IMG/VR virus record: IMGVR_UViG_3300009149_000185
Span: 1-29,813 of that record
DNA from: a virus
Direction: 5' to 3' (one strand)
Length of the DNA stretch: 29,813 nucleotides
The notes beneath the pieces were generated by a model that saw only the letters and a list, made by a program, of their open reading frames with translations, had not been told where the DNA came from and made no database searches. Below are positions 17,906-29,665 of this stretch, piece after piece (position 1 is the stretch's first letter; each line of letters starts with the position of its first letter). A program made the position numbers and the translations under genes.

Positions 17906-18238
17906 TTATTCCCCATCCTCAATATTATTTAGGGTCTCAGACACATCTTTTTGAGGCGTTTCTTCATTTTCTACATCTTTTTCTAAATCATTTGCAATCT
18001 GTATAAGTTGCTCTGTTGGGACAGGTACACAGTCTAATTCATATGCCTTAGATGCTTCTCTAGTCATCTGTGCGAGAATTGGATATTCGCATGATATCTC
18101 TTTTGCTGCAGCGTTTAATTCTCCAATTGCAAACCACTTGTGGATAGGATAAGCAAATCCAATGTTTGCTTCGTCCTCAAACACCATTGCAGTTGCAACA
18201 TGTTTACGATAACAATTAAGACATGCAATCTGTGCCAT
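17906..18238 (-). CDS. Conserved-looking small CxxC protein (110 aa), function unknown
   Basis: I do not recognise a function. The protein starts MAQIACLNCYRKHVATAMVF, with a CxxC and nearby KH that could bind a metal or be redox-active. The segment YPIHKWFAIGELNAAAKEIS (30-49) is helical and followed by a Cys (C50). The last 30 residues are acidic and probably disordered (NDLEKDVENEETPQKDVSET). Its ATG overlaps the stop of the 447-residue gene as TAATG and has GAGGAAAG upstream, so the two are translationally coupled. It is the last gene of the operon, ahead of the terminator. Confidence 0.7.
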   Translation of the reverse strand: MAQIACLNCYRKHVATAMVFEDEANIGFAYPIHKWFAIGELNAAAKEISCEYPILAQMTREASKAYELDCVPVPTEQLIQIANDLEKDVENEETPQKDVSETLNNIEDGE

Positions 18239-19581
18239 TATCTACTTTCCTCTAAACTCTTGAGTGCATCCTCTAAACCTCTCACCTTAGTGTCTCTAGA
18301 TACAGCACCCGCCCATGTAGCACAATGCTTTCCTCTCATTGATCCAATACTACCTCTTATCTCATCTTCTGTCATTGTGGCAATCAACTTTCCATTTACG
18401 TCTAAAAAGTCTTTAATAAGAAAAGAATCAGATACTGACTCAAAAACAAACGTTCGACCATTGCCTAATATCTTCGAGTAGTTATCAGCAATCTTATTAG
18501 CATTGAACTTACCTATAGGAAAATGATCTTCATCAACAACTCGATCCCCGTCCTTTTCATTCTTATATTGATAAAGCATTACTGGAGATTCTGGTTCTGG
18601 ATCATTCTTATACACAGATGCATCTTGATCATACTTCTGAGTCATATCTATCATGAATCTCAAGAAATCATTTCCATCAGTACCCTTGGGTGCAGCAACA
18701 AAGAGAGATCTCTCACCTATGTCTTGTTTGTTACCACCTTCATCTGTTTCAACCCAACGTCCGTCCAGTTCCCAGAATCCGTAACCTTGTTTTCTAATAT
18801 CTCTTTTTAGTTTCCTATTGATTGCCTCGTTCGTCTTCTCGTCATTCTCTCCACGATATCCAGTAATGATTCCCCAAACAAATCCTTTTTGATTTGCCAT
18901 CTGCCAAACACGTGACAACTTTTCTTCGTTGAGCGCACGTTTATTCTTCTCAATTGAATAATTGACAGATGTATCTTCAAACAGATTTTGAATATCTACA
19001 TCTTTATAATACCCATGTTTTCTGAGTTTATCTTGAACTTTGATTGTTAATTCGTCATTGAATGATATATCATAGATTGGGCGATTGGAACCATCCCAAT
19101 TCTCATCCTCTAGGAATCCCTCATCAGCGTAACTCTTTAGATATTCATCGGGATCAATTGACTGACTCGACTTAGTTGCGAGGTTATCAACTTTAAGAGT
19201 CCATGATGTGGCAAGTAGTTTTGCAAGACTCTTAGTATCTGGAGTGAGTTTGTTAAATGTTTTACCCTTATCCTTGAATGCTTGGATAAGGTCAGCGATA
19301 GCACCAAGTGCTTCCTGAAGTTTTCTCTTTCGTGCTGATAGTTGAATCGTTACGAAGTTTTGCCAATCGCGAATTCGGACTTGCCCAGATTCAACAGCAA
19401 GTCTTTTTATCTCTTCTTCATTCTTAGCATTCACTGGAAGATCTTCGAGCGCTTCTTGTGCTGCCCAATGTAGATCTAATGCTTCTTGTATCTTTGGTAT
19501 CTTAATGTCATGCTCATGTCGATTGATCTCAACGCCGACATTATTATCTGGGTTATACCAATATCCTGCACCTTGTGCCAT
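18238..19581 (-). CDS. Phage protein with a DUF3293-like C-terminal domain
   Basis: This is a 447-residue soluble protein. Residues about 218-395 look like a DUF3293-type domain as found in phage and bacterial proteins. The pattern is GFVWGIITGYRGEN, then INRKLKRDIRKQGYGFWELD, GRWVE, then ERSLFVAAPKG, then FLRFMIDMTQKYDQDASVYK and GRTFVFESV. The biochemical role of that domain is not known to me. The N-terminus (GYWYNPDNNVGVEINRHEHD, then SGQVRIRDWQNFVTIQL) resembles a small recurrent phage module beginning W-Y-P and including a V-R-I/L-R strand. The middle (100-215) is helical. It lies 3 nt after dCMP deaminase and overlaps the next gene by one base, within the operon driven by a host-like promoter, so it is probably an early or middle protein rather than a virion protein. 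Confidence 0.72.
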   Translation of the reverse strand: MAQGAGYWYNPDNNVGVEINRHEHDIKIPKIQEALDLHWAAQEALEDLPVNAKNEEEIKRLAVESGQVRIRDWQNFVTIQLSARKRKLQEALGAIADLIQAFKDKGKTFNKLTPDTKSLAKLLATSWTLKVDNLATKSSQSIDPDEYLKSYADEGFLEDENWDGSNRPIYDISFNDELTIKVQDKLRKHGYYKDVDIQNLFEDTSVNYSIEKNKRALNEEKLSRVWQMANQKGFVWGIITGYRGENDEKTNEAINRKLKRDIRKQGYGFWELDGRWVETDEGGNKQDIGERSLFVAAPKGTDGNDFLRFMIDMTQKYDQDASVYKNDPEPESPVMLYQYKNEKDGDRVVDEDHFPIGKFNANKIADNYSKILGNGRTFVFESVSDSFLIKDFLDVNGKLIATMTEDEIRGSIGSMRGKHCATWAGAVSRDTKVRGLEDALKSLEESR

Positions 19582-21220: not shown

Positions 21221-22720
21221 ATGGACGAGTACGATTGTGGTGATCAAGAGGAAATGGAAGAGGTTACGCTTACTGCTGCGTTATCTGCACAATGGAATGC
21301 AACTTCGTGGTATGTTGGTTCTGTAGGAGTTCACTCAATATTATTCCTACTCTTATTACTATTACCAGTGCCATCAAGACAACCACAAGAACGTCGTATT
21401 GTTATCGTAACAGACATTGTAGAGCAAATTATCGAAGAAAAGGTTGAGGATGAACCAGAAATTGAAAAGATAGTCAACCCTATCCAAGAAGTAGACCCAA
21501 CCATCACAACCGATGAGGTTGTTATAAACACAACAGACATAGAGATATCCGACACATTTGAAACTGTAGATGATATGGATGACAAGTCTGCACTTGGTGA
21601 CCCCAATAACATCTCTGACGTTGATTCTGAGTTCGTTGGAGTGCCTGCTCTTATGGGAGTCGGGGCGACTGGGGGTAATGGTGGTGGTGGTCGCTTTGGG
21701 ACTCGCACTGGTGGTGGGAAGTCTGGTCGTACTCGCCAGGGTGGTGGAGGTAAAGATACTCAAAATAGTGTCACTAGTGCCCTAAGGTGGTTAGCAGCAC
21801 ATCAGGAGTACGATGGGCGTTGGGACTGTAAAAAATATGGTGGTGGTAATCATGGTGGTGATGATTGCGTCGTAACGTCTCTTGCGCTCCTTGCATTCCT
21901 TGGCGACGGAAATTCGTCTAGATTCGGCAAATATCGATCTAATGTGAAAAAAGCGACTGAATGGTTGGTTTCTCAACAAAAGGGTGGTCACATTGGTCCA
22001 CACCGCTATGTCTCTGCTCTAACCACCATGGCACTAGTTGAGTCGTATGGTATGAGTAATGACCGAAAAATGCGTGAAATTGCCCAAATGTGCACAAATT
22101 GGGTCGTAAGTTCACAAAACACCACTGGTGCTTGGGATTACAGTCCAAAGTCAAAAAGAAGCGACACATCAGTCTCTGGATGGTGGATCATGGCAATGAA
22201 GTCTGCCAAGACAGTTGGTCTAAAAATGCCTCCTGAGACTAATTATAAGGCGTTGGAGTACATTCGCAAGGCAACAACCGAAACGTCCGGTAGGACTTCT
22301 TATTCGTCCACTGGTGACGCAATTAAGCAGGGTGGTGGGTCGAATAGAATGTCTGCAGTTGCCCTCACCTGTCTCCAATTTCTGGGTCAACCGAAGAATG
22401 ATAAGCAAGTTGTCGGATGTGCCAAGACGACACTTAAATACCTCCCAGAACCAGACAAGTTTGATTTTTATCTCTGGTACTACGAAGCACTTGGGTTCTT
22501 TCAAATGGGTGTAAAATCACCATATTGGAAAACTTTTAACCCTAAAATGAAAGAATCCCTACTATCCACACAAGTGAACGTAGGGACATATGAAGAGAAT
22601 AAAGGTTCATGGAATCCTGACACAGACAAATACGGACCATCGTGGGGAAGAGTCGGTCAAACTGCCCTCGGAGCGCTAATGTTGGAAATTTACTATCGTT
22701 ATGAAGAAGTTAAACGTTAA
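21221..22720 (+). CDS. Membrane-anchored prenyltransferase/squalene-cyclase-repeat protein of PVC-bacterial type
   Basis: The start is the ATG at 21221, with GGAAGGA upstream; a TTG at 21206 would put the ribosome binding site inside the gene. The 499-residue protein has a short acidic cytoplasmic N-terminus and a membrane helix at about 29-50 (HSILFLLLLLLPVP). An acidic, Thr/Ile-rich stalk (52-145) and a Gly/Arg-rich hinge (147-177) follow. An alpha-alpha toroid begins near 182: SALRWLAAHQEYDGRWDC, VTSLALLAFLGDG, SALTTMALVESYGM, TNWVVSSQNTTGAWDY, SDTSVSGWWIMAMKSAKTVG, LWYYEALGFFQMG, GSWNPDTDKYG, GRVGQTALGALMLEIYYRY. This matches a membrane-anchored family known mainly from Planctomycetota and relatives. 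The cyclase DXDD acid motif is absent, so binding rather than catalysis is likely. The toroid should face the periplasm. It is probably host-derived cargo. Confidence 0.85.
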   Translation: MDEYDCGDQEEMEEVTLTAALSAQWNATSWYVGSVGVHSILFLLLLLLPVPSRQPQERRIVIVTDIVEQIIEEKVEDEPEIEKIVNPIQEVDPTITTDEVVINTTDIEISDTFETVDDMDDKSALGDPNNISDVDSEFVGVPALMGVGATGGNGGGGRFGTRTGGGKSGRTRQGGGGKDTQNSVTSALRWLAAHQEYDGRWDCKKYGGGNHGGDDCVVTSLALLAFLGDGNSSRFGKYRSNVKKATEWLVSQQKGGHIGPHRYVSALTTMALVESYGMSNDRKMREIAQMCTNWVVSSQNTTGAWDYSPKSKRSDTSVSGWWIMAMKSAKTVGLKMPPETNYKALEYIRKATTETSGRTSYSSTGDAIKQGGGSNRMSAVALTCLQFLGQPKNDKQVVGCAKTTLKYLPEPDKFDFYLWYYEALGFFQMGVKSPYWKTFNPKMKESLLSTQVNVGTYEENKGSWNPDTDKYGPSWGRVGQTALGALMLEIYYRYEEVKR

Positions 22721-24248
22721 AGGTTAAAATGTCTTGCATGTAGACAGTATCAGCAAGAAAACATACCCAACCAACCGAAACAACACAGTCATCGTTAGAT
22801 CCATCCTCTGCTTGCCAGCGGCAATTGCCAGCAGAGGACTTTTTTTCTACATAGGTTAAGCATTCATTAATGGTAGTTTGATCACTCAAATGTAATCTAA
22901 ACGTTTCTGCATAATCTTTGATAGCATTCACCATCTTGTTCTTAGTACTTCTGTTTGAGTTGACACCCGCTGCGATTGACCCACCAGATGCATCCGGATG
23001 ATAGTACGTATTCTCCCAATAATATTCTTGAGTCATCTTATCGGCAAACGATTGTCCAATACCATTGTTCTCTAAGATCAGATGTGGTTCACCCCAAGTA
23101 GGTAGAACCTCAAACGTATAATCTACAAAGTTTGGAATATTGATTAAGTTTGATCTAAATATTGCTGCTTGCCATAAATCTGTAATAATGGCATCTGGCA
23201 CGTCTTCTGCCTTCCGTTCGTAAATTTTATGATCATCCAGGTTAGGTTCCCGCCAGTCCATCTCAAACAGGTTTAAAACCGAATAGTCATTACCACTCCC
23301 AGTTGCAACATCAACAGACGCAATGTATGTTTTCAGCGGATTATATTCTCTATAGACACGATAGAATCCATTATGAATAGAAACCTCTTGGAGGATTGGT
23401 TTTGCGACCATCTCTTTCAATGCATCAGCGCCAATGATTGTTGTTTGTGATCCAATGAAGTTATTACCATACTCTGAGTTGAAAGCGATGAGACCGATAT
23501 CGGAGATCATTGCTTCTTTCCACTCAGGTGTACTATATTCAGGAACTTCCCAATAGTCTACCCTACATGGTACATAGGTGTTTGTTTTATCTATAGCACC
23601 CTTCCATAATGAATGGAATAGGTTCCCAACACCTCTTGCCGTAGAAGTCACAACAAGTTTCTCACCCTTAGAAATTGTAGGATAGTTTGCTCTATAGAAC
23701 TCACGTGCCAAGTTCTCTGCAATAAGAGCACATTCATCAATATACAGGAACGAAACAGATTCACCAGCGATAGCATCTTTAGATGTCGCAGCAGAGAATA
23801 TTTTAGAACCGTTCTCAAATTTGATTGTGTGGGCATTGTATTCCGTCACACCCAATTTCATCCAATCTGGTAAGTGCTCAAACGCCGTCTTAACGTCGCT
23901 CAAAATACTCATTGATTTGGAATCTTTGTTAGCGAGAATAGCACAGCATTTGTATGGTGTAAACATTGCGTAGTGAAGGATAATAAGAGCAATTGCAGTC
24001 GTTTTTCCGCACTGTCTTGGGGCGAGGATAATCGACTGCCTATTGTTAATAACAGTATCAATGATTCTATTTTGGAAATTATATAGACTTGCTTTGATCT
24101 TACCATGTGTTGGATGAACGACATAGCAGTAATTATCACAAAAGTATTTAACATCCGTCTTACACTTATACATTTCATCAAGCATATCTCTAGTAAACTC
24201 AATTTGTCTACCAGGATCGGGAATGAGACTATTCTGTTTCTTCGCCAT
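22710..24248 (-). CDS. terL: Terminase large subunit, T4 gp17-like ATPase-nuclease
   Basis: This is a 512-residue DNA-packaging motor. The start at 24248 (MAKKQNSLIPDPG) has TAGGAG 6 nt upstream; an ATG two codons earlier is too close to it. The ATPase has Walker A LAPRQCGKTT (about 75-84), Walker B FLYIDECA (167-174) and coupling motif STARG (202-206). The RNase-H-like nuclease has SVDVATGSGNDYS (first Asp about 313), LILENNGIG (Glu about 392) and NDDCVVSVGW (Asp 486/487), matching the gp17 D-E-D triad. It is shorter than T4 gp17 (610). It overlaps the upstream gene by 20 nt. Its last codons overlap the convergent plus-strand gene by 11 bp, and the codons for about 470-485 also form the plus-strand terminator. 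Confidence 0.96.
   Translation of the reverse strand: MAKKQNSLIPDPGRQIEFTRDMLDEMYKCKTDVKYFCDNYCYVVHPTHGKIKASLYNFQNRIIDTVINNRQSIILAPRQCGKTTAIALIILHYAMFTPYKCCAILANKDSKSMSILSDVKTAFEHLPDWMKLGVTEYNAHTIKFENGSKIFSAATSKDAIAGESVSFLYIDECALIAENLAREFYRANYPTISKGEKLVVTSTARGVGNLFHSLWKGAIDKTNTYVPCRVDYWEVPEYSTPEWKEAMISDIGLIAFNSEYGNNFIGSQTTIIGADALKEMVAKPILQEVSIHNGFYRVYREYNPLKTYIASVDVATGSGNDYSVLNLFEMDWREPNLDDHKIYERKAEDVPDAIITDLWQAAIFRSNLINIPNFVDYTFEVLPTWGEPHLILENNGIGQSFADKMTQEYYWENTYYHPDASGGSIAAGVNSNRSTKNKMVNAIKDYAETFRLHLSDQTTINECLTYVEKKSSAGNCRWQAEDGSNDDCVVSVGWVCFLADTVYMQDILTFNV
22805..22847 (+). terminator. Plus-strand terminator embedded in the terminase coding sequence
   Basis: CCTCTGCT (22805-22812) pairs with AGCAGAGG (22830-22837). 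The loop contains a further short hairpin (TGCC-AGC-GGCA), and ACTTTTTTTC follows. This is a standard rho-independent terminator reading rightward, 85 nt past the stop of the membrane repeat protein. The same bases encode KKSSAGNCRW in the terminase on the other strand. Confidence 0.72.
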
Positions 24249-24915
24249 CGTCATCTCCTATTACGTGTGCCTCTTGGATATTTTCAATACCTTTGCTACC
24301 ATTGATGATTTCCAATATATCATTAGCACTACCAACAGCAATGACATTAGTATTGGACGGACCAGTCTCTGCGATCTTTTCTTTGATATCAATCTCACGT
24401 TTCTTGAGGTCTGCTTTGTATTTCTGAATTTCAAGATGAGTTCTCTCGTTATCGAGTTTTGCTTTTCTATATTGAATCTCTCCAATATCGCGAAGCATCT
24501 CAGCAACCTTACCCATAGTGTCGTTAATAGATGTAACAACTTTATCGTGGTAACCTGCTTGGGCGAGACAATTCTCTAGATGGTCTAGTAGATTGATGCC
24601 TCGCTCAGCGAGTAAAGCAAAGATCATCTTTGCCTTCTCTTCTTCATTGTGAAGAGGTTCAAACGTGATGTTTCCAACATCGTCTACACGCTTGACTTTC
24701 TCGCCAAGTTTTTCTTGGATTTGTTTGAGTGCGTTGATAGGTATGTGTACTGGTTCATCTTGTTCAATAGTCGATGGAACATATCCATCGCCAAGAACAC
24801 CCAAGACATCAATGATACTACATCCATTCTGTGCTTGCGCATCTTCCATCAACTTCTTGGCATCTTTGATACCATCATCCACTTTTTTCTTATCTTCGTT
24901 ACGAGGTCTGCCCAT
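24229..24915 (-). CDS. Putative terminase small subunit (gp16-like position)
   Basis: I place the start at the ATG at 24915 (MGRPRNEDKKKVDDGIKDAK), which has GGAG 6 nt upstream. The frame runs on to 24945, but those codons lie in a probable untranslated hairpin region. The 228-residue protein is strongly helical. A charged coiled coil runs over about residues 155-195 (LDNERTHLEIQKYKADLKKR, EIDIKEKIAE). The tail is acidic (DDDGEETE). A G-R-P-R start and a central coiled coil are typical of small terminase subunits, and the gene overlaps terL by 20 nt in the normal order. No helix-turn-helix is obvious. T4 gp16 is 164 residues. Function rests on position and helical character. Confidence 0.65.
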   Translation of the reverse strand: MGRPRNEDKKKVDDGIKDAKKLMEDAQAQNGCSIIDVLGVLGDGYVPSTIEQDEPVHIPINALKQIQEKLGEKVKRVDDVGNITFEPLHNEEEKAKMIFALLAERGINLLDHLENCLAQAGYHDKVVTSINDTMGKVAEMLRDIGEIQYRKAKLDNERTHLEIQKYKADLKKREIDIKEKIAETGPSNTNVIAVGSANDILEIINGSKGIENIQEAHVIGDDDGEETE

Positions 24916-25001: not shown

Positions 25002-25739
25002 TTACTTATTGAATCTTGCTTTGCGCGTAACATCTTTGATTAATGCGCTCTTATCATGCTCACGAAGAGGTTGCTTAACATATTTATCAAGCAGCTCAGT
25101 TGGCATGTCTGAAAGAATCTCAGTCAACTCTTCCAAAACAAAATTCGTATTCTTATTCTCTCCCAAGAGATTTTTCTTTTTGTTCTCCACATATATGTAG
25201 TATGCAGCAGCAACCAATCCAACACCAATAACGATTAAAACTACCCATGGATATTGGTTGATCATAATACCACAGGCGATAAGAGACGCACCACCTGCGG
25301 ATACACCCATACCTAACCACCACATACCGAAGAACATTAGTACAACACCTACTGCTACCATAATCCCACCAAAGACAAATAACTGGACAGGTGCTAAGTT
25401 TAGTTTCCAAGTCGAAGTCATCGAAGTAAATGAATCTGTAGAAGTCTTACCAGATGCTGATAGTTTAAACTTACCCTTGGATCCAACTGGGACTTCTGTG
25501 TCTACACCATCAATACGAATTCTGTAAGGAGGATAAGGTTTTCCAGCAGTGTCAAGAAGGAGGTCTTCGGGTAGTTCAATCTCACCCTCAATATCCCCAA
25601 TGATTCGATTACGTATTGTATCTGTTTGTGAAGCGTTGCCTTCGTTTCCAGTAGGAATACGACCAGGATTATTGGTCTTAATACAACCCATTGAAATTGT
25701 AAATGCAATACATATAAGTAGTAGTGTTTTCTTAAACAT
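25002..25739 (-). CDS. Lipoprotein with three membrane segments, possible lysis or envelope protein
   Basis: This 245-residue protein begins with a lipoprotein signal peptide (KKTLLLICIAFTISMGC), with lipobox Cys at residue 19. A short periplasmic domain follows (20-112), including DLLLDTAGKPYPPYRIRIDG. Three hydrophobic segments lie at about 116-137, 141-160 and 163-183 (YPWVVLIVIGVGLVAAAYYI), then a charged tail (184-245) that should be cytoplasmic. A lipid-anchored N-terminus joined to inner-membrane helices is the general layout of unimolecular spanins, which fuse inner and outer membranes at lysis. Those normally have one membrane helix, so this is only a possibility. GAGAGAGG lies 6 nt before the ATG. 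It sits upstream of the terminase genes with its own late-type motif. No holin or endolysin is nearby. Confidence 0.72.
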   Translation of the reverse strand: MFKKTLLLICIAFTISMGCIKTNNPGRIPTGNEGNASQTDTIRNRIIGDIEGEIELPEDLLLDTAGKPYPPYRIRIDGVDTEVPVGSKGKFKLSASGKTSTDSFTSMTSTWKLNLAPVQLFVFGGIMVAVGVVLMFFGMWWLGMGVSAGGASLIACGIMINQYPWVVLIVIGVGLVAAAYYIYVENKKKNLLGENKNTNFVLEELTEILSDMPTELLDKYVKQPLREHDKSALIKDVTRKARFNK

Positions 25740-25815: not shown

Positions 25816-26109
25816 TTAGGCGTTAGGGAACGGATTTGAATCTGATGCATATGGTTCCCAACTAATAGTGACCCCATCTGAGAGGGTTACAAATCCTGTC
25901 AAAGAATTTGAACCAATATTGGCACCTGGTTGTATTTCACTAGCAAAAGGATCCCATGAAGATACATTCAGGGAAGTTCCCGTCCTAGAATATGTGTATC
26001 CTGTTGTATAAACTTGTTTTTGTACCGATATAGCACCATGTCCATATGGAAGCGCAGTATATGATCGATTGAATATCACTGCTCCATTGAATTCACCACC
26101 ACTAGTCAT
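25816..26109 (-). CDS. Small paralogue of the C-terminal domain of the Ser-rich protein
   Basis: This 97-residue protein clearly resembles the last 90 residues of the protein encoded just upstream. WDPFASEIQPGANIGSNSLT here matches LDPLAAELQRGGPLSTNALS there, and VTLSDGVTISWEPYASD matches ATFNDGVVVIWEPYSGD. Predicted to be all beta. Its ATG overlaps the stop of the larger gene as ATGA, so translation is coupled. It probably arose by duplication of the domain. It may assemble with, or substitute for, the C-terminal domain of the large protein in the virion (inference). No known family is recognised. Confidence 0.72.
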   Translation of the reverse strand: MTSGGEFNGAVIFNRSYTALPYGHGAISVQKQVYTTGYTYSRTGTSLNVSSWDPFASEIQPGANIGSNSLTGFVTLSDGVTISWEPYASDSNPFPNA

Positions 26110-28154
26110 TCATTTGGATAACATTCTCCAAATTCTTGATCATCTCCACTATAAGGTTCCCATATAACAACTACACCGTCATTAAATGTGGCAGATCCTG
26201 ATAGTGCGTTTGTCGAAAGCGGACCACCCCGCTGGAGTTCTGCAGCCAAAGGATCTAGTGAATTAGCATAGAGTAAACTATCTAAAACAGTTCCTTGCGA
26301 ATTAAGAGCATAAGCAAGTCCATCCTCACCACCTGTAGTTTGTCTAGCGATTTTTACAAATTCATTTGACTGTGTGCCTCCACCTAAGTATTGCGCAGAT
26401 AATTGAATACGACTCTTAGTGCCATATGCGAACGCCCAAGACTCCAAATTGTTAGATATTGATGATACACAATCATATGTTTTTGGGCAGATTAATTTAG
26501 TCTCACCATTGTTCCAAGTAACACCAAGAAAATCTCTTGTAGATGTATCAATTGTTTCATCACTCGGCCACATCAAAGTAACTGATAACATCGGATCATC
26601 ACAATCTACAGGTCCACCACCACCAGGGAAATTCGTACTAGAACTCGATGATGAACTTGAAGACGAACTTGAAGACGAACTTGAAGATGAACTTGATGAT
26701 TCTGACGATGATGAACTTGATGATTCTGACGATGATGATGAAATATTTTGTTCACCACAACACGGTCCTAAAGTTGGTGTAAATATAGGAAAGGTCGTCC
26801 CCGTACAAAAAGATGTTGCCCATGTTGGCACCACACACCTCCCGCCCAAATCACACTTACGAAGATATAAAACACCAGGTCTTGAAGCATTACAGAATTG
26901 ACTACCATTATTGATTATACTAAGACATTGATTATACGTTACACATGTTGAGAATGATGTCTGTGCGTATGGTGCACCACCTGGGCATGTGAAATAAGAT
27001 ATTGCTGCCCGAGCGGGATATAGACCAGTACATATATCTCCACCAGATGCAGAACTTGCACTAGAATCACTTGACCCACTACTGATAGAACTATTGGAAC
27101 TATCAGAACTTACAACATCTTCACAGCAGCAATTGAGGCAATCACCATCCCCTGCTGGAGGACATGGGTTGGTTGAGTATTCGTAACGTTTGGGATAAAT
27201 TTTACCTATACTTTCGCAATATGAATAACACTCACTTGCGATAAGTGGTGGGTTGTTGATGTATGTGTCATCTGGAACTGCAATATTATCGCCGCGAATA
27301 TATCCAAGATCAATACAACTACTTACACCAATACCTTCATCCCCAGAACTAGAAGACGAACTATTAACACTCGACGCACTAGAGGCAGATGATTGACTTG
27401 ATAAAGATGATACACTACTATGACTAGATGAGATACTCAGACTAGAATCACTAGACTCTGATGATTGACTTGAACTACTTTCCGAACTTAATGATGATTG
27501 TGAACTAGTACTTGAGATACTAGATTGACTAGAATCACTAGACTCTGATGATTGACTACTTGGACTTGATTCACTTGAACTGCTTTTTGAACTTAATGAT
27601 GATTGTGAACTAGTACTTGAGATGCTGGATTGACTAGAATCACTAGACTCTGATGATTGCGAACTAGTACTTGAGATGATGGATACACTTGACTCGCTTG
27701 ATGTGCTACTAATACTTGATACACTACTTGTAGAACTACTATTACTAGACGTGGATGATATGCTAGATTGACTAGAACTACTTAAACTACTTAAACTACT
27801 TATGCTGCTAGATTCACTACTCAAACTTGAAGCACTGCTTGCGCTACTATCACTACTAGCACTAGATTTAAGAGCACTACTTGAAGATGAAGATGAAGAT
27901 GAAGAATCCGAGGGTAGATCTACAGACGATAGACCCAAGTCTGTGAGATCATCTAGCGTATCATTCAAACACATATCACAGCAAGGAAACGTTTTTTCGA
28001 TTTCAAACCCTATAGGAAGGACTGTTATGTTTCCTACATCACCATCAAACCCTGCCAATTTCCAACACCGACCATCAGAGTCTCTAAAACTCTGTGCGCC
28101 GAATGCACTGGATAATTTTAACTCACTAGGAAAGTGTCCTTGTTTATCTGCCAT
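26106..28154 (-). CDS. Ser-rich, Cys-rich modular surface protein (682 aa)
   Basis: The layout is modular. An N-terminal domain (1-80, with CCDMC) is followed by a Ser-rich tract of about 190 residues (82-270) built from SSxSS units. A Cys-rich domain follows (280-347, with CLNCCCED), then a short Ser tract (349-370). A second Cys-rich domain (374-468, ending in PCCGE) is followed by a near-pure Ser run (471-506) and a C-terminal beta domain (515-682) shared with the next gene. Ser tracts of this kind are usually flexible, often glycosylated linkers, and the many cysteines suggest disulfide-stabilised domains outside the cell. No signal peptide is present, so a virion appendage is more likely than a secreted protein. 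The start overlaps the sulfotransferase stop as TAATG. Confidence 0.78.
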   Translation of the reverse strand: MADKQGHFPSELKLSSAFGAQSFRDSDGRCWKLAGFDGDVGNITVLPIGFEIEKTFPCCDMCLNDTLDDLTDLGLSSVDLPSDSSSSSSSSSSALKSSASSDSSASSASSLSSESSSISSLSSLSSSSQSSISSTSSNSSSTSSVSSISSTSSESSVSIISSTSSQSSESSDSSQSSISSTSSQSSLSSKSSSSESSPSSQSSESSDSSQSSISSTSSQSSLSSESSSSQSSESSDSSLSISSSHSSVSSLSSQSSASSASSVNSSSSSSGDEGIGVSSCIDLGYIRGDNIAVPDDTYINNPPLIASECYSYCESIGKIYPKRYEYSTNPCPPAGDGDCLNCCCEDVVSSDSSNSSISSGSSDSSASSASGGDICTGLYPARAAISYFTCPGGAPYAQTSFSTCVTYNQCLSIINNGSQFCNASRPGVLYLRKCDLGGRCVVPTWATSFCTGTTFPIFTPTLGPCCGEQNISSSSSESSSSSSSESSSSSSSSSSSSSSSSSSSSSTNFPGGGGPVDCDDPMLSVTLMWPSDETIDTSTRDFLGVTWNNGETKLICPKTYDCVSSISNNLESWAFAYGTKSRIQLSAQYLGGGTQSNEFVKIARQTTGGEDGLAYALNSQGTVLDSLLYANSLDPLAAELQRGGPLSTNALSGSATFNDGVVVIWEPYSGDDQEFGECYPNE
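26641..26745 (-). repeat. Short-period Ser-codon repeat
   Basis: This stretch encodes the near-pure Ser run of the surface protein. At DNA level it is a tandem of related 12-nt units such as TTCAAGTTCGTC and TTCATCATCGTC on the minus strand. It alternates AGT with TCA, TCG and TCT codons rather than using one codon. Confidence 0.75.
27440..27683 (-). repeat. Long-period (105-nt) tandem repeat in the Ser-rich tract
   Basis: A 71-nt segment at 27484-27554 recurs almost exactly at 27589-27659, giving a 105-nt (35-residue) period. Partial copies flank it from about 27440 and to about 27683. The encoded unit contains QSSESSDSSQSSISSTSSQ. High DNA identity implies a recent duplication and a tract likely to vary in length. 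Confidence 0.82.
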
Positions 28155-28537
28155 TATAGTACGACTAGGATATATCCACCCTTTCCGTTAGGTGCCGGTG
28201 TAGCGCTCTTAATTTGTTTACCTTGATTCTTGAGTTTCTTAAGAAACGCTTCTACGTCTTGGATTGAATCAAATTCTTTTACAACAGGATCTTGAATAGG
28301 TCCAGCGAAATACATAGACACTTCTTTACCCATTAATTTTGAGAATATGCTATTGGTTTTATCGATGTCTCTCTTGAATCCATCGATAATCTTTTTGGTG
28401 CAAGAACATCCACCCTTCTTCGCAACGAAATTATCCCAATCCCTCTTCCGAACATCTGGATATTCGTACTTGAAGATGTCTAGATTATCCAACACAATCT
28501 TAATTTCAGATTGTCTAAATACAGTATCTTCTGCCAT
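28154..28537 (-). CDS. Possible in-frame internal gene: C-terminal 127 residues of the sulfotransferase ORF
   Basis: Inside the sulfotransferase frame an ATG at 28537 has a near-perfect ribosome binding site (AAGGAGAG, 6-8 nt spacing) and a late-promoter-like GATAAATA 38 nt upstream. The 127-residue product (MAEDTVFRQSEIKIVLDNLD onward) contains GGCSCTKKIIDGFKRDID and a C-terminal ferredoxin-like-looking segment (DVEAFLKKLKNQGKQIK, then GGYILVVL). It could be a standalone virion protein whose upstream stop was lost, or a second product by internal initiation. Confidence 0.4.
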   Translation of the reverse strand: MAEDTVFRQSEIKIVLDNLDIFKYEYPDVRKRDWDNFVAKKGGCSCTKKIIDGFKRDIDKTNSIFSKLMGKEVSMYFAGPIQDPVVKEFDSIQDVEAFLKKLKNQGKQIKSATPAPNGKGGYILVVL

Positions 28538-29665
28538 GGTCTTCTCTCCTTGTTCTACAACCACTTCTTCTGCTATATTTATCGGTTCGATGCCATCTTT
28601 CCAGAAATTATTATCAATGCTTTCATTTACTGACAATTTTTTATAACCATGTATATAAGCACACTCATACATGCATGGTTCATCTTCCCACTTGATTTTC
28701 TTACTTTCTGCCTGATTTCTCTGCTTCTGGATAATTTTAGGTTCATTTTTGCGACACATCTTGCAGAATTGCGGCCGCACACCGTTCCCACTGCGAAAGC
28801 AGAAGAAATTAAGATTATTATTGAACGTTGCTGTGTCTTGTCTCTTACTGAAGTCTACAATAGACTTATAGTCTTTTTTAACAAATTGTTTGTAAATAAA
28901 CTCAGCATCACCCCAGAGGTCATTTTCTACTTCTTCTGGATAACTTCGACGCAATTTCTTATTGATTTGCTTTGCTGCATCTTTGTTATTCCCATCTTCA
29001 CCCAAGAAGTCACTAATCCCCGACAAAACCTTCTCTGGGTTCTCTAGTAAATCATCGTAAATAACATAGTGTACGGGCACTGTGTTGAATCTTAATAACC
29101 AATGGGATACTGTGGAGGTCACATTAATAAACATCTCTGGAGTGTGAATTTTTATTTGCTCTCCATCGATCTTCATTTTGCTTAAATCGCCCAATGGGGA
29201 GGGTCTAACGAGTTTTTCTTGTGATTTAGCAACCGATCTTGGATGCCTGATCATAAAAATAACTTTGTCGATATATTGGGGATCGGATTGAACTAAACCT
29301 TGAGATACGATCTTACAGAATGATTTAGTCTTTTCTTCTTTTAATTTATCTAGACGATCTAAATCAAAGAAACGATAATGACATCCCTGAACAGTATATA
29401 GCATTTCCCAGAAACCATTAGGATTCATATCTTTAGAATGATTTAGTGCTTTATCTAGATCACGCTTTTCAGACATACGATTAAATGTATACATACGCAT
29501 CTCATATTGGAGATCCGTTTCATTTTCGTGTTTCTTTTGCGCGTTTTCAATATGTTCTTCTTGTGGGAATTTCTTACCCACGATACGATCTTCACCATAT
29601 GCTACGCGCATAAGGTCCATCATAAGACTTGTCCCACTACGTGGGCATCCTGATACTACATACAT
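28154..29665 (-). CDS. Sulfotransferase-like protein with a Cys-rich middle and an extra C-terminal domain
   Basis: This is a 503-residue protein. The first ~290 residues have the PAPS-dependent sulfotransferase signatures: a 5'-phosphosulfate loop at the N-terminus (VVSGCPRSGTSLMMDLMR, about 3-20) and a 3'-phosphate motif VIFMIRHPRSVAKSQ (about 135-149). A late YDDLLENPEKVLSGISDFLG segment (203-222) is also standard. Such enzymes transfer sulfate from PAPS to a hydroxyl or amine. Next comes a Cys-rich part (C289, FCKMCRKN at 300-307, PCMYECAYIH at 330-339) that could bind zinc. The last 127 residues (from M377) are unlike sulfotransferases and may be a separate product. The acceptor is unknown: host surface glycan, or the Ser-rich protein encoded next, are possibilities. 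GGGAGAG lies 6 nt before the ATG. Confidence 0.8.
   Translation of the reverse strand: MYVVSGCPRSGTSLMMDLMRVAYGEDRIVGKKFPQEEHIENAQKKHENETDLQYEMRMYTFNRMSEKRDLDKALNHSKDMNPNGFWEMLYTVQGCHYRFFDLDRLDKLKEEKTKSFCKIVSQGLVQSDPQYIDKVIFMIRHPRSVAKSQEKLVRPSPLGDLSKMKIDGEQIKIHTPEMFINVTSTVSHWLLRFNTVPVHYVIYDDLLENPEKVLSGISDFLGEDGNNKDAAKQINKKLRRSYPEEVENDLWGDAEFIYKQFVKKDYKSIVDFSKRQDTATFNNNLNFFCFRSGNGVRPQFCKMCRKNEPKIIQKQRNQAESKKIKWEDEPCMYECAYIHGYKKLSVNESIDNNFWKDGIEPINIAEEVVVEQGEKTMAEDTVFRQSEIKIVLDNLDIFKYEYPDVRKRDWDNFVAKKGGCSCTKKIIDGFKRDIDKTNSIFSKLMGKEVSMYFAGPIQDPVVKEFDSIQDVEAFLKKLKNQGKQIKSATPAPNGKGGYILVVL
28576..28583 (-). promoter_or_regulatory. Late-promoter-like motif inside the sulfotransferase gene
   Basis: Minus-strand GATAAATA (extended GATAAATATAG, like the copy before the gp15-like gene) ends 38 nt before the internal ATG at 28537. 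Inside a coding region it could be chance. Its combination with a strong ribosome binding site makes it worth listing. Confidence 0.35.

Follow-up and report, generated by a model that had tools for sequence, protein, structure and literature searches.

A T4-like phage was found to carry a gene for a membrane-anchored toroid protein, P0001, whose N-terminus resembles that of TonB and TolA. With a probability of about 0.55, we regard P0001 as a captured PMF-motor-coupled transducer with a toroid head, which would occupy or redirect the host ExbBD/TolQR motor. The window, the whole stretch of DNA analysed here (29,813 nucleotides), is an IMG/VR virus contig. A sequence-only reading of this DNA had pointed to a vague role of the protein in altering the host envelope; the SHLS motif and the D-box-like strand, both missed by that reading, sharpen it into a specific hypothesis.

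Genes for a T4-type baseplate, tube, sheath, gp15 and terminase lie on the minus strand of the window, indicating that the contig comes from a real T4-like phage, as the sequence-only reading had assigned it. The possibility of a misbinned bacterial contig was ruled out by these flanking tail and terminase genes and by synteny in other phages. Even the best sequenced phages have terminases that share no more than 33% identity with that of the window, and no DNA sequence close to the window was detected in the phage records searched. The coordinates and translation of the P0001 reading frame, from the ATG at 21221 to the stop at 22720, were exact.

Table 1. Features of the toroid gene and its surroundings (positions in the window; aa, residues of P0001)
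Feature	Position	Strand	Basis or remark
Cys/His-rich gene, 206 aa	20560..21180	+	Upstream of toroid gene; CxC, CTC and HxxxC patterns
Shine-Dalgarno-like GGAAGGAA	21208..21215	+	Sequence, upstream of ATG
Toroid gene (P0001, 499 aa)	21221..22720	+	ORF translation, AlphaFold2, relatives
TM helix, aa 30-50	21308..21370	+	Carries S34 (21320-21322) and H38 (21332-21334)
Acidic disordered periplasmic stalk, aa 52-145	21374..21655	+	pLDDT <50 at aa 59-116 and 125-156
D-box/motor-box-like beta-prone RIVIVTDI, aa 59-66	21395..21418	+	Position, alternating hydrophobics
Gly/Arg-rich hinge, aa 146-177	21656..21751	+	Sequence; conserved G157, G160, R162
Alpha-alpha toroid domain, aa 178-495	21752..22705	+	Profile, Pfam, AlphaFold2, structural matches
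T4-type terminase large subunit	22710..24254	-	Convergent with toroid gene, 11-bp overlap
Hairpin plus run of seven T, terminator-like	22804..22846	+	Inside 3' end of convergent terminase gene

The domain order proposed from the sequence, a TM helix followed by an acidic stalk, a Gly/Arg hinge and a toroid ending in GALMLEIYYRY, agreed with the translation and with the AlphaFold2 model. In this model, built on 48 sequences, the mean pLDDT was 80, with a helix at residues 30-46 and values above 90 across most of residues 170-498. P0001 by itself gave weak family matches only. When the alignment of 48 relatives (A2) was compared with PDB profiles, squalene-hopene cyclase was matched at E 3.7e-15, and the SQHop_cyclase_C Pfam match was present in 45 of the 48 members. 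The same enzyme stood first in the VIA-align structure ranking (Z 26.6, 281 residues, rmsd 2.8), above sugar epimerases and other toroids. Both the profile and the structure scores place the toroid match far above chance, and the predicted alpha-alpha toroid was thus borne out. Comparison with complement C3d-type toroids, also proposed in that reading, gave a far weaker likeness than squalene-hopene cyclase, the best solved match; TED_complement was weakly matched in nine of the 48 members.

The key observation concerns the N-terminal helix. Within it, S34 is kept in 46 and H38 in all 47 of 47 relatives, and these two columns are the most strongly conserved of residues 1-145, which precede the Gly/Arg hinge. 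In cryo-EM structures, TonB and TolA contact ExbB and TolQ through the Ser and His of their SHLS motif (PMC12215075). Three positions of this motif, S34, H38 and L45, are present in P0001 and the fourth is P49 in place of Ser; the Leu and Ser are the less conserved positions in TonB itself (PMC12215075). About 20 residues past S-x3-H begins the RIVIVTDI segment, in which position 62 is Ile or Val in 40 of 47 rows. Its spacing and alternating hydrophobic residues are D-box-like, yet the segment is disordered in the AlphaFold2 model; the TonB D-box ISVTMVT pairs with ExbD (PMC10907165). All six phage copies of the protein have S-x3-H, a hydrophobic residue at H+7 and a beta-prone strand afterwards, and [S/A/T]-x3-H lies within the TM helix in 90 of the 122 TM-bearing toroid proteins collected. 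From these sequence features, S34-x3-H38 is predicted to be the motor-docking pair of the TonB/TolA SHLS motif, and the N-terminus of P0001 to be TonB/TolA-like.

The genomic surroundings of related proteins also point to a motor. For 20 toroid proteins of other subfamilies, ExbB/ExbD genes were located on the same strand and no more than 2.5 kb upstream, several of them separated from the toroid gene by 10 bp or less; among the toroid loci examined, no motor genes were found on the opposite strand. The fuller operons follow the order TPR - ExbB - ExbD - (ExbD) - toroid, which is the plan of the PVC operon of vWA force transducers, namely TPR, tolQ-like, two tolR-like and transducer genes (PMC12204202). 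Some operon-linked toroid proteins are without a detectable S-x3-H (L005, the first gene of L014, L016 and L082). Together with the S-x3-H motif and the D-box-like strand, this linkage supports the earlier hint at a TonB/Exb-like process. Motor genes were not found beside host toroid genes of the phage's own subfamily, and docking of the phage protein is for this reason argued from its sequence motifs. The host order has both ExbB and ExbD, with several ExbB/ExbD pairs in hosts of this subfamily. A phage-encoded motor as the partner was rejected, as none was found in the phages searched. On these grounds, the phage protein probably uses a host motor of the ExbB/ExbD type as its docking site, in the manner of TonB. 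Two further observations were made in this survey. In genome G001, only two ExbB genes were found against 27 toroid-family matches, that is, many transducer-like proteins and few motors; at L166:6798-9986, ExbB-ExbD is followed by a 1063-aa protein with S-x3-H in its TM helix, perhaps a vWA-type or other transducer.

The family to which P0001 belongs is, as the sequence-only reading had proposed, a PVC family. Nearly all of the 80 named genome loci are from Planctomycetota, Verrucomicrobiota, Kiritimatiellota or Lentisphaerota, two records bearing Proteobacteria and Clostridiales MAG labels, and the homology extends over the full length, including the TM helix, stalk, Gly hinge and toroid. The seed A1, made of the window domain plus a hand-written consensus, guided the search patterns only, and matches were then verified in tblastn searches that used the window sequence; the wide alignment varied too much to support a pattern scan. 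Among 392 Planctomycetota genomes, the best full-length relatives were found in G339, with three copies at 57-59% identity over residues 4-498 and a fourth at 46%, followed by those in G114 and G080 of the same order. As judged by open reading frames, the G339 copies are flanked by chromosomal genes such as topoisomerase I-like and ribosomal protein S4-like genes. In the tree, whose phage copies fall inside one Planctomycetota order, the phage protein was placed among sequences of that order only, with 100% support. This nesting, the outcome of the profile search and tree that the sequence-only reading had proposed, agrees with the acquisition from the host that it had suspected, and identifies the toroid gene, by phylogenetic placement, as derived from that order. 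The family is greatly expanded in some hosts, with 27, 26 and 16 matches at E <= 1e-10 in G001, G002 and G003. Among the papers covered, a literature search retrieved no description of the toroid family or of a phage TonB-like transducer, and in the essential-gene studies of P. limnophila and V. spinosum the main text makes no mention of the family.

Nothing was returned when single proteins were scanned against IMG/VR, when phage and plasmid records were searched by tblastn, or when DNA was scanned with a degenerate motif. These negatives reflect a limit of sensitivity, because phage relatives were revealed by alignments of close sequences alone. Syntenic copies were then identified in L168, L169, L170 (a 191,782-bp contig) and L172, with 65%, 51%, 54% and 50% identity, respectively, to the window protein. 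In all four the order is dCMP deaminase, the 206-aa gene, the toroid gene and the convergent terminase; the L169 contig begins within the 206-aa gene, and a small additional ORF precedes the terminase in L172. In the related phages L132 and L178, with terminase identities of 76% and 74%, the 206-aa gene directly abuts the terminase gene and the toroid gene is absent; no match to it was found elsewhere in the L132 record, a fragment. The 206-aa gene, whose product gave no family match, is conserved in all phages of the group, whether or not the toroid gene is present.

Between the phage copies, synonymous sites are saturated (pS 0.71-0.81) at pN 0.16-0.34, indicating that the toroid gene is under purifying selection in phages. 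GC3 is 0.36-0.41 in the phage copies (0.37 in the window) against 0.59-0.68 in the host copies, by which a very recent transfer was rejected. The common locus in five phages, the purifying selection and the phage-like GC3 together indicate a long-resident gene. Toroid and terminase identities were 65 and 69% for window-L168, 54 and 52% for window-L170, and 78 and 69% for L169-L170. The toroid divergence thus roughly tracks that of the terminase, which fits old residence with loss in some relatives; repeated gain is also possible. When four of the five syntenic copies were constrained to one clade, the AU test did not reject it (p 0.32).

A sixth copy, 31% identical, was found on the 44.9-kb contig L174, and it groups with proteins of a different planctomycete genome (100% SH-aLRT), which points to capture from another planctomycete lineage. 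This contig has RNR, dUTPase, dNMP kinase, homing and HNH endonuclease genes and a virion structural protein match, and no terminase was found on it; it is therefore likely, not proven, to be a phage.

The sequence-only reading had further described the gene as a moron-like cassette with its own terminator. This description needs revision. An equivalent hairpin is located at the terminase 3' end of the sister phage L132, from which the toroid gene is absent, so that the hairpin is not the toroid gene's own terminator; it probably ends the plus-strand unit in general. The consensus terminator scan, with a shorter loop limit, did not list this hairpin. As to absence from relatives, by which a moron is judged, the gene is missing in L132 and L178 and present at one locus in five related phages.

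Other genes of this region are recorded here for their own sake. The 447-aa protein of 18238-19581 (minus strand) has an S-adenosylmethionine lyase-family match at residues 238-376 (PF23780, E 2.9e-8) and could be an anti-restriction protein; homologues are present in L168, L170, L176 and L178. Adjoining the terminase gene, 25002-25739 (minus) encodes a lipoprotein-like product with several membrane segments, a possible lysis or envelope protein, kept in all these phages. Very long poly-Ser stretches and Cys-rich modules characterize the product of 26106-28154 (minus), which has Ser-rich relatives in L132 and L170. In the product of 28154-29665 (minus), an N-terminal sulfotransferase domain (PF13469, E 1.7e-8) is fused to a C-terminal part that forms a separate small ORF in the same two phages. 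The terminase large subunit of L132 (L132:6747-9293) looks split by an intein-like insert at Walker A (CGK...HNTTA), an insert that the window terminase is without. Endonuclease-like ORFs lie beside the terminase at L168:12952-14502 and L172:7564-8166, one of them between the toroid gene and the terminase.

Based on these findings, we propose the following model. P0001 would be a phage copy from a large planctomycetal (PVC) family of envelope proteins that resemble TonB/TolA. Its N-terminal helix would be anchored in the host inner membrane, with S34 and H38 docking on the outside of the host ExbB/TolQ pentamer and the strand of residues 59-66 pairing with ExbD/TolR in its periplasmic domain. 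A disordered, acidic and Gly-rich stretch of about 110 residues would then cross the periplasm, and the toroid, without the conserved cyclase acid motif, would be the head, which may hold on to a putative ligand at either the cell wall or the outer membrane. In the infected cell, the phage copy would sit on the proton-driven motor beside the host transducers or supplant them by competition, altering what the motor pulls. We favour a use in which an outer-membrane process that depends on the motor, such as the uptake routes of competing phages, is blocked or given a new target, or in which outer-membrane stability is affected near lysis. That competition with or re-targeting of host transducers changes an outer-membrane process for the benefit of the phage is suggested tentatively.

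The main rival to the motor reading is a motor-independent protein for ligand binding or scaffolding, in which the helix would be a mere anchor for a toroid that recognizes a periplasmic polysaccharide, lipid or peptide, the envelope being masked or modified. The occurrence of sugar epimerases, GH76 mannanases and TED/C3d-type toroids among the structural matches is in its favour, as is the separation of the own-subfamily host genes from motor genes, and the large family size, with as many as 27 matches in one genome, would be compatible with diversified binding. A bare anchor, however, needs no invariant His in the bilayer four residues past a Ser, and sister subfamilies occupy the position of TonB in ExbB-ExbD operons; we consider this rival rather unlikely. 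The high rank of squalene-hopene cyclase, the top match in both sequence and structure, raises instead the possibility of an enzyme that modifies host membrane lipids, whether as a cyclase of terpenoids or lipids or as a toroid enzyme of another kind. No DxDD motif is conserved in the toroid of the aligned relatives, and for this reason P0001, with its cyclase-like fold, probably does not perform squalene-cyclase-type catalysis. The fixed motif of the toroid is xxxDTSVxGW, with D315 as its sole strongly conserved Asp and the two preceding acids absent; we infer that this segment corresponds to the DxDD motif of the cyclase, the profile alignment not spanning the segment. Since P0001 has, in addition, a single toroid of about 320 aa in the AlphaFold2 model against two in squalene-hopene cyclase, an enzyme is improbable.

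Least probable of all is passive cargo, a captured host gene giving no advantage to the phage. Its absence from the two close relatives L132 and L178 would be expected of such cargo, whereas five phages share the locus without disruption, pN stays low while synonymous sites are saturated, and the divergent copy on the sixth contig retains the motifs.

If the motor-coupled transducer reading is true, P0001 is the first phage-encoded TonB/TolA-like force transducer known to us, and phages carry part of the energy-transduction machinery of their hosts. The toroid would then be a third head type of motor-driven envelope transducers, after TonB/TolA and vWA, and a protein family that ranks among the most expanded in Planctomycetota would gain a testable role. 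On a wider view, to which we give even odds, Planctomycetota phages captured SHLS-toroid transducers at least twice to commandeer the proton-driven envelope motor of the host, and the toroid proteins form a huge undescribed class of motor-driven PVC transducers. The tree of the captured gene also assigns a host order to a group of T4-like phages that are uncultured.

Among known systems, squalene-hopene cyclase and the class II terpene cyclases (SQHop_cyclase Pfam) share with P0001 the toroid fold and QW-like repeats, but P0001 joins one toroid, without conserved DxDD, to a TonB-like membrane arm. With the C3d/TED alpha-alpha toroids it has the general fold in common. P0001 and TonB or TolA alike have Ser-x3-His-x6-Leu in the N-terminal helix, a beta-prone segment resembling a D-box/motor box close outside the membrane, and about 100 disordered residues leading to a globular C-terminal domain; in P0001 this domain is an alpha-alpha toroid in place of the TonB/TolA CTD, Pro stands at the fourth SHLS position, and the gene is phage-borne. 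A further parallel is to the vWA force transducers that PMC12204202 describes in PVC and other bacteria, which, as P0001, have an SHLS helix, a linker of about 100 residues and a C-terminal domain other than that of TonB, and whose motor box has a candidate counterpart in P0001. Phage-borne vWA transducers were not reported in that study; in contrast, the toroid family has a terpene-cyclase-like head, includes many scattered orphan copies, and is carried by phages.
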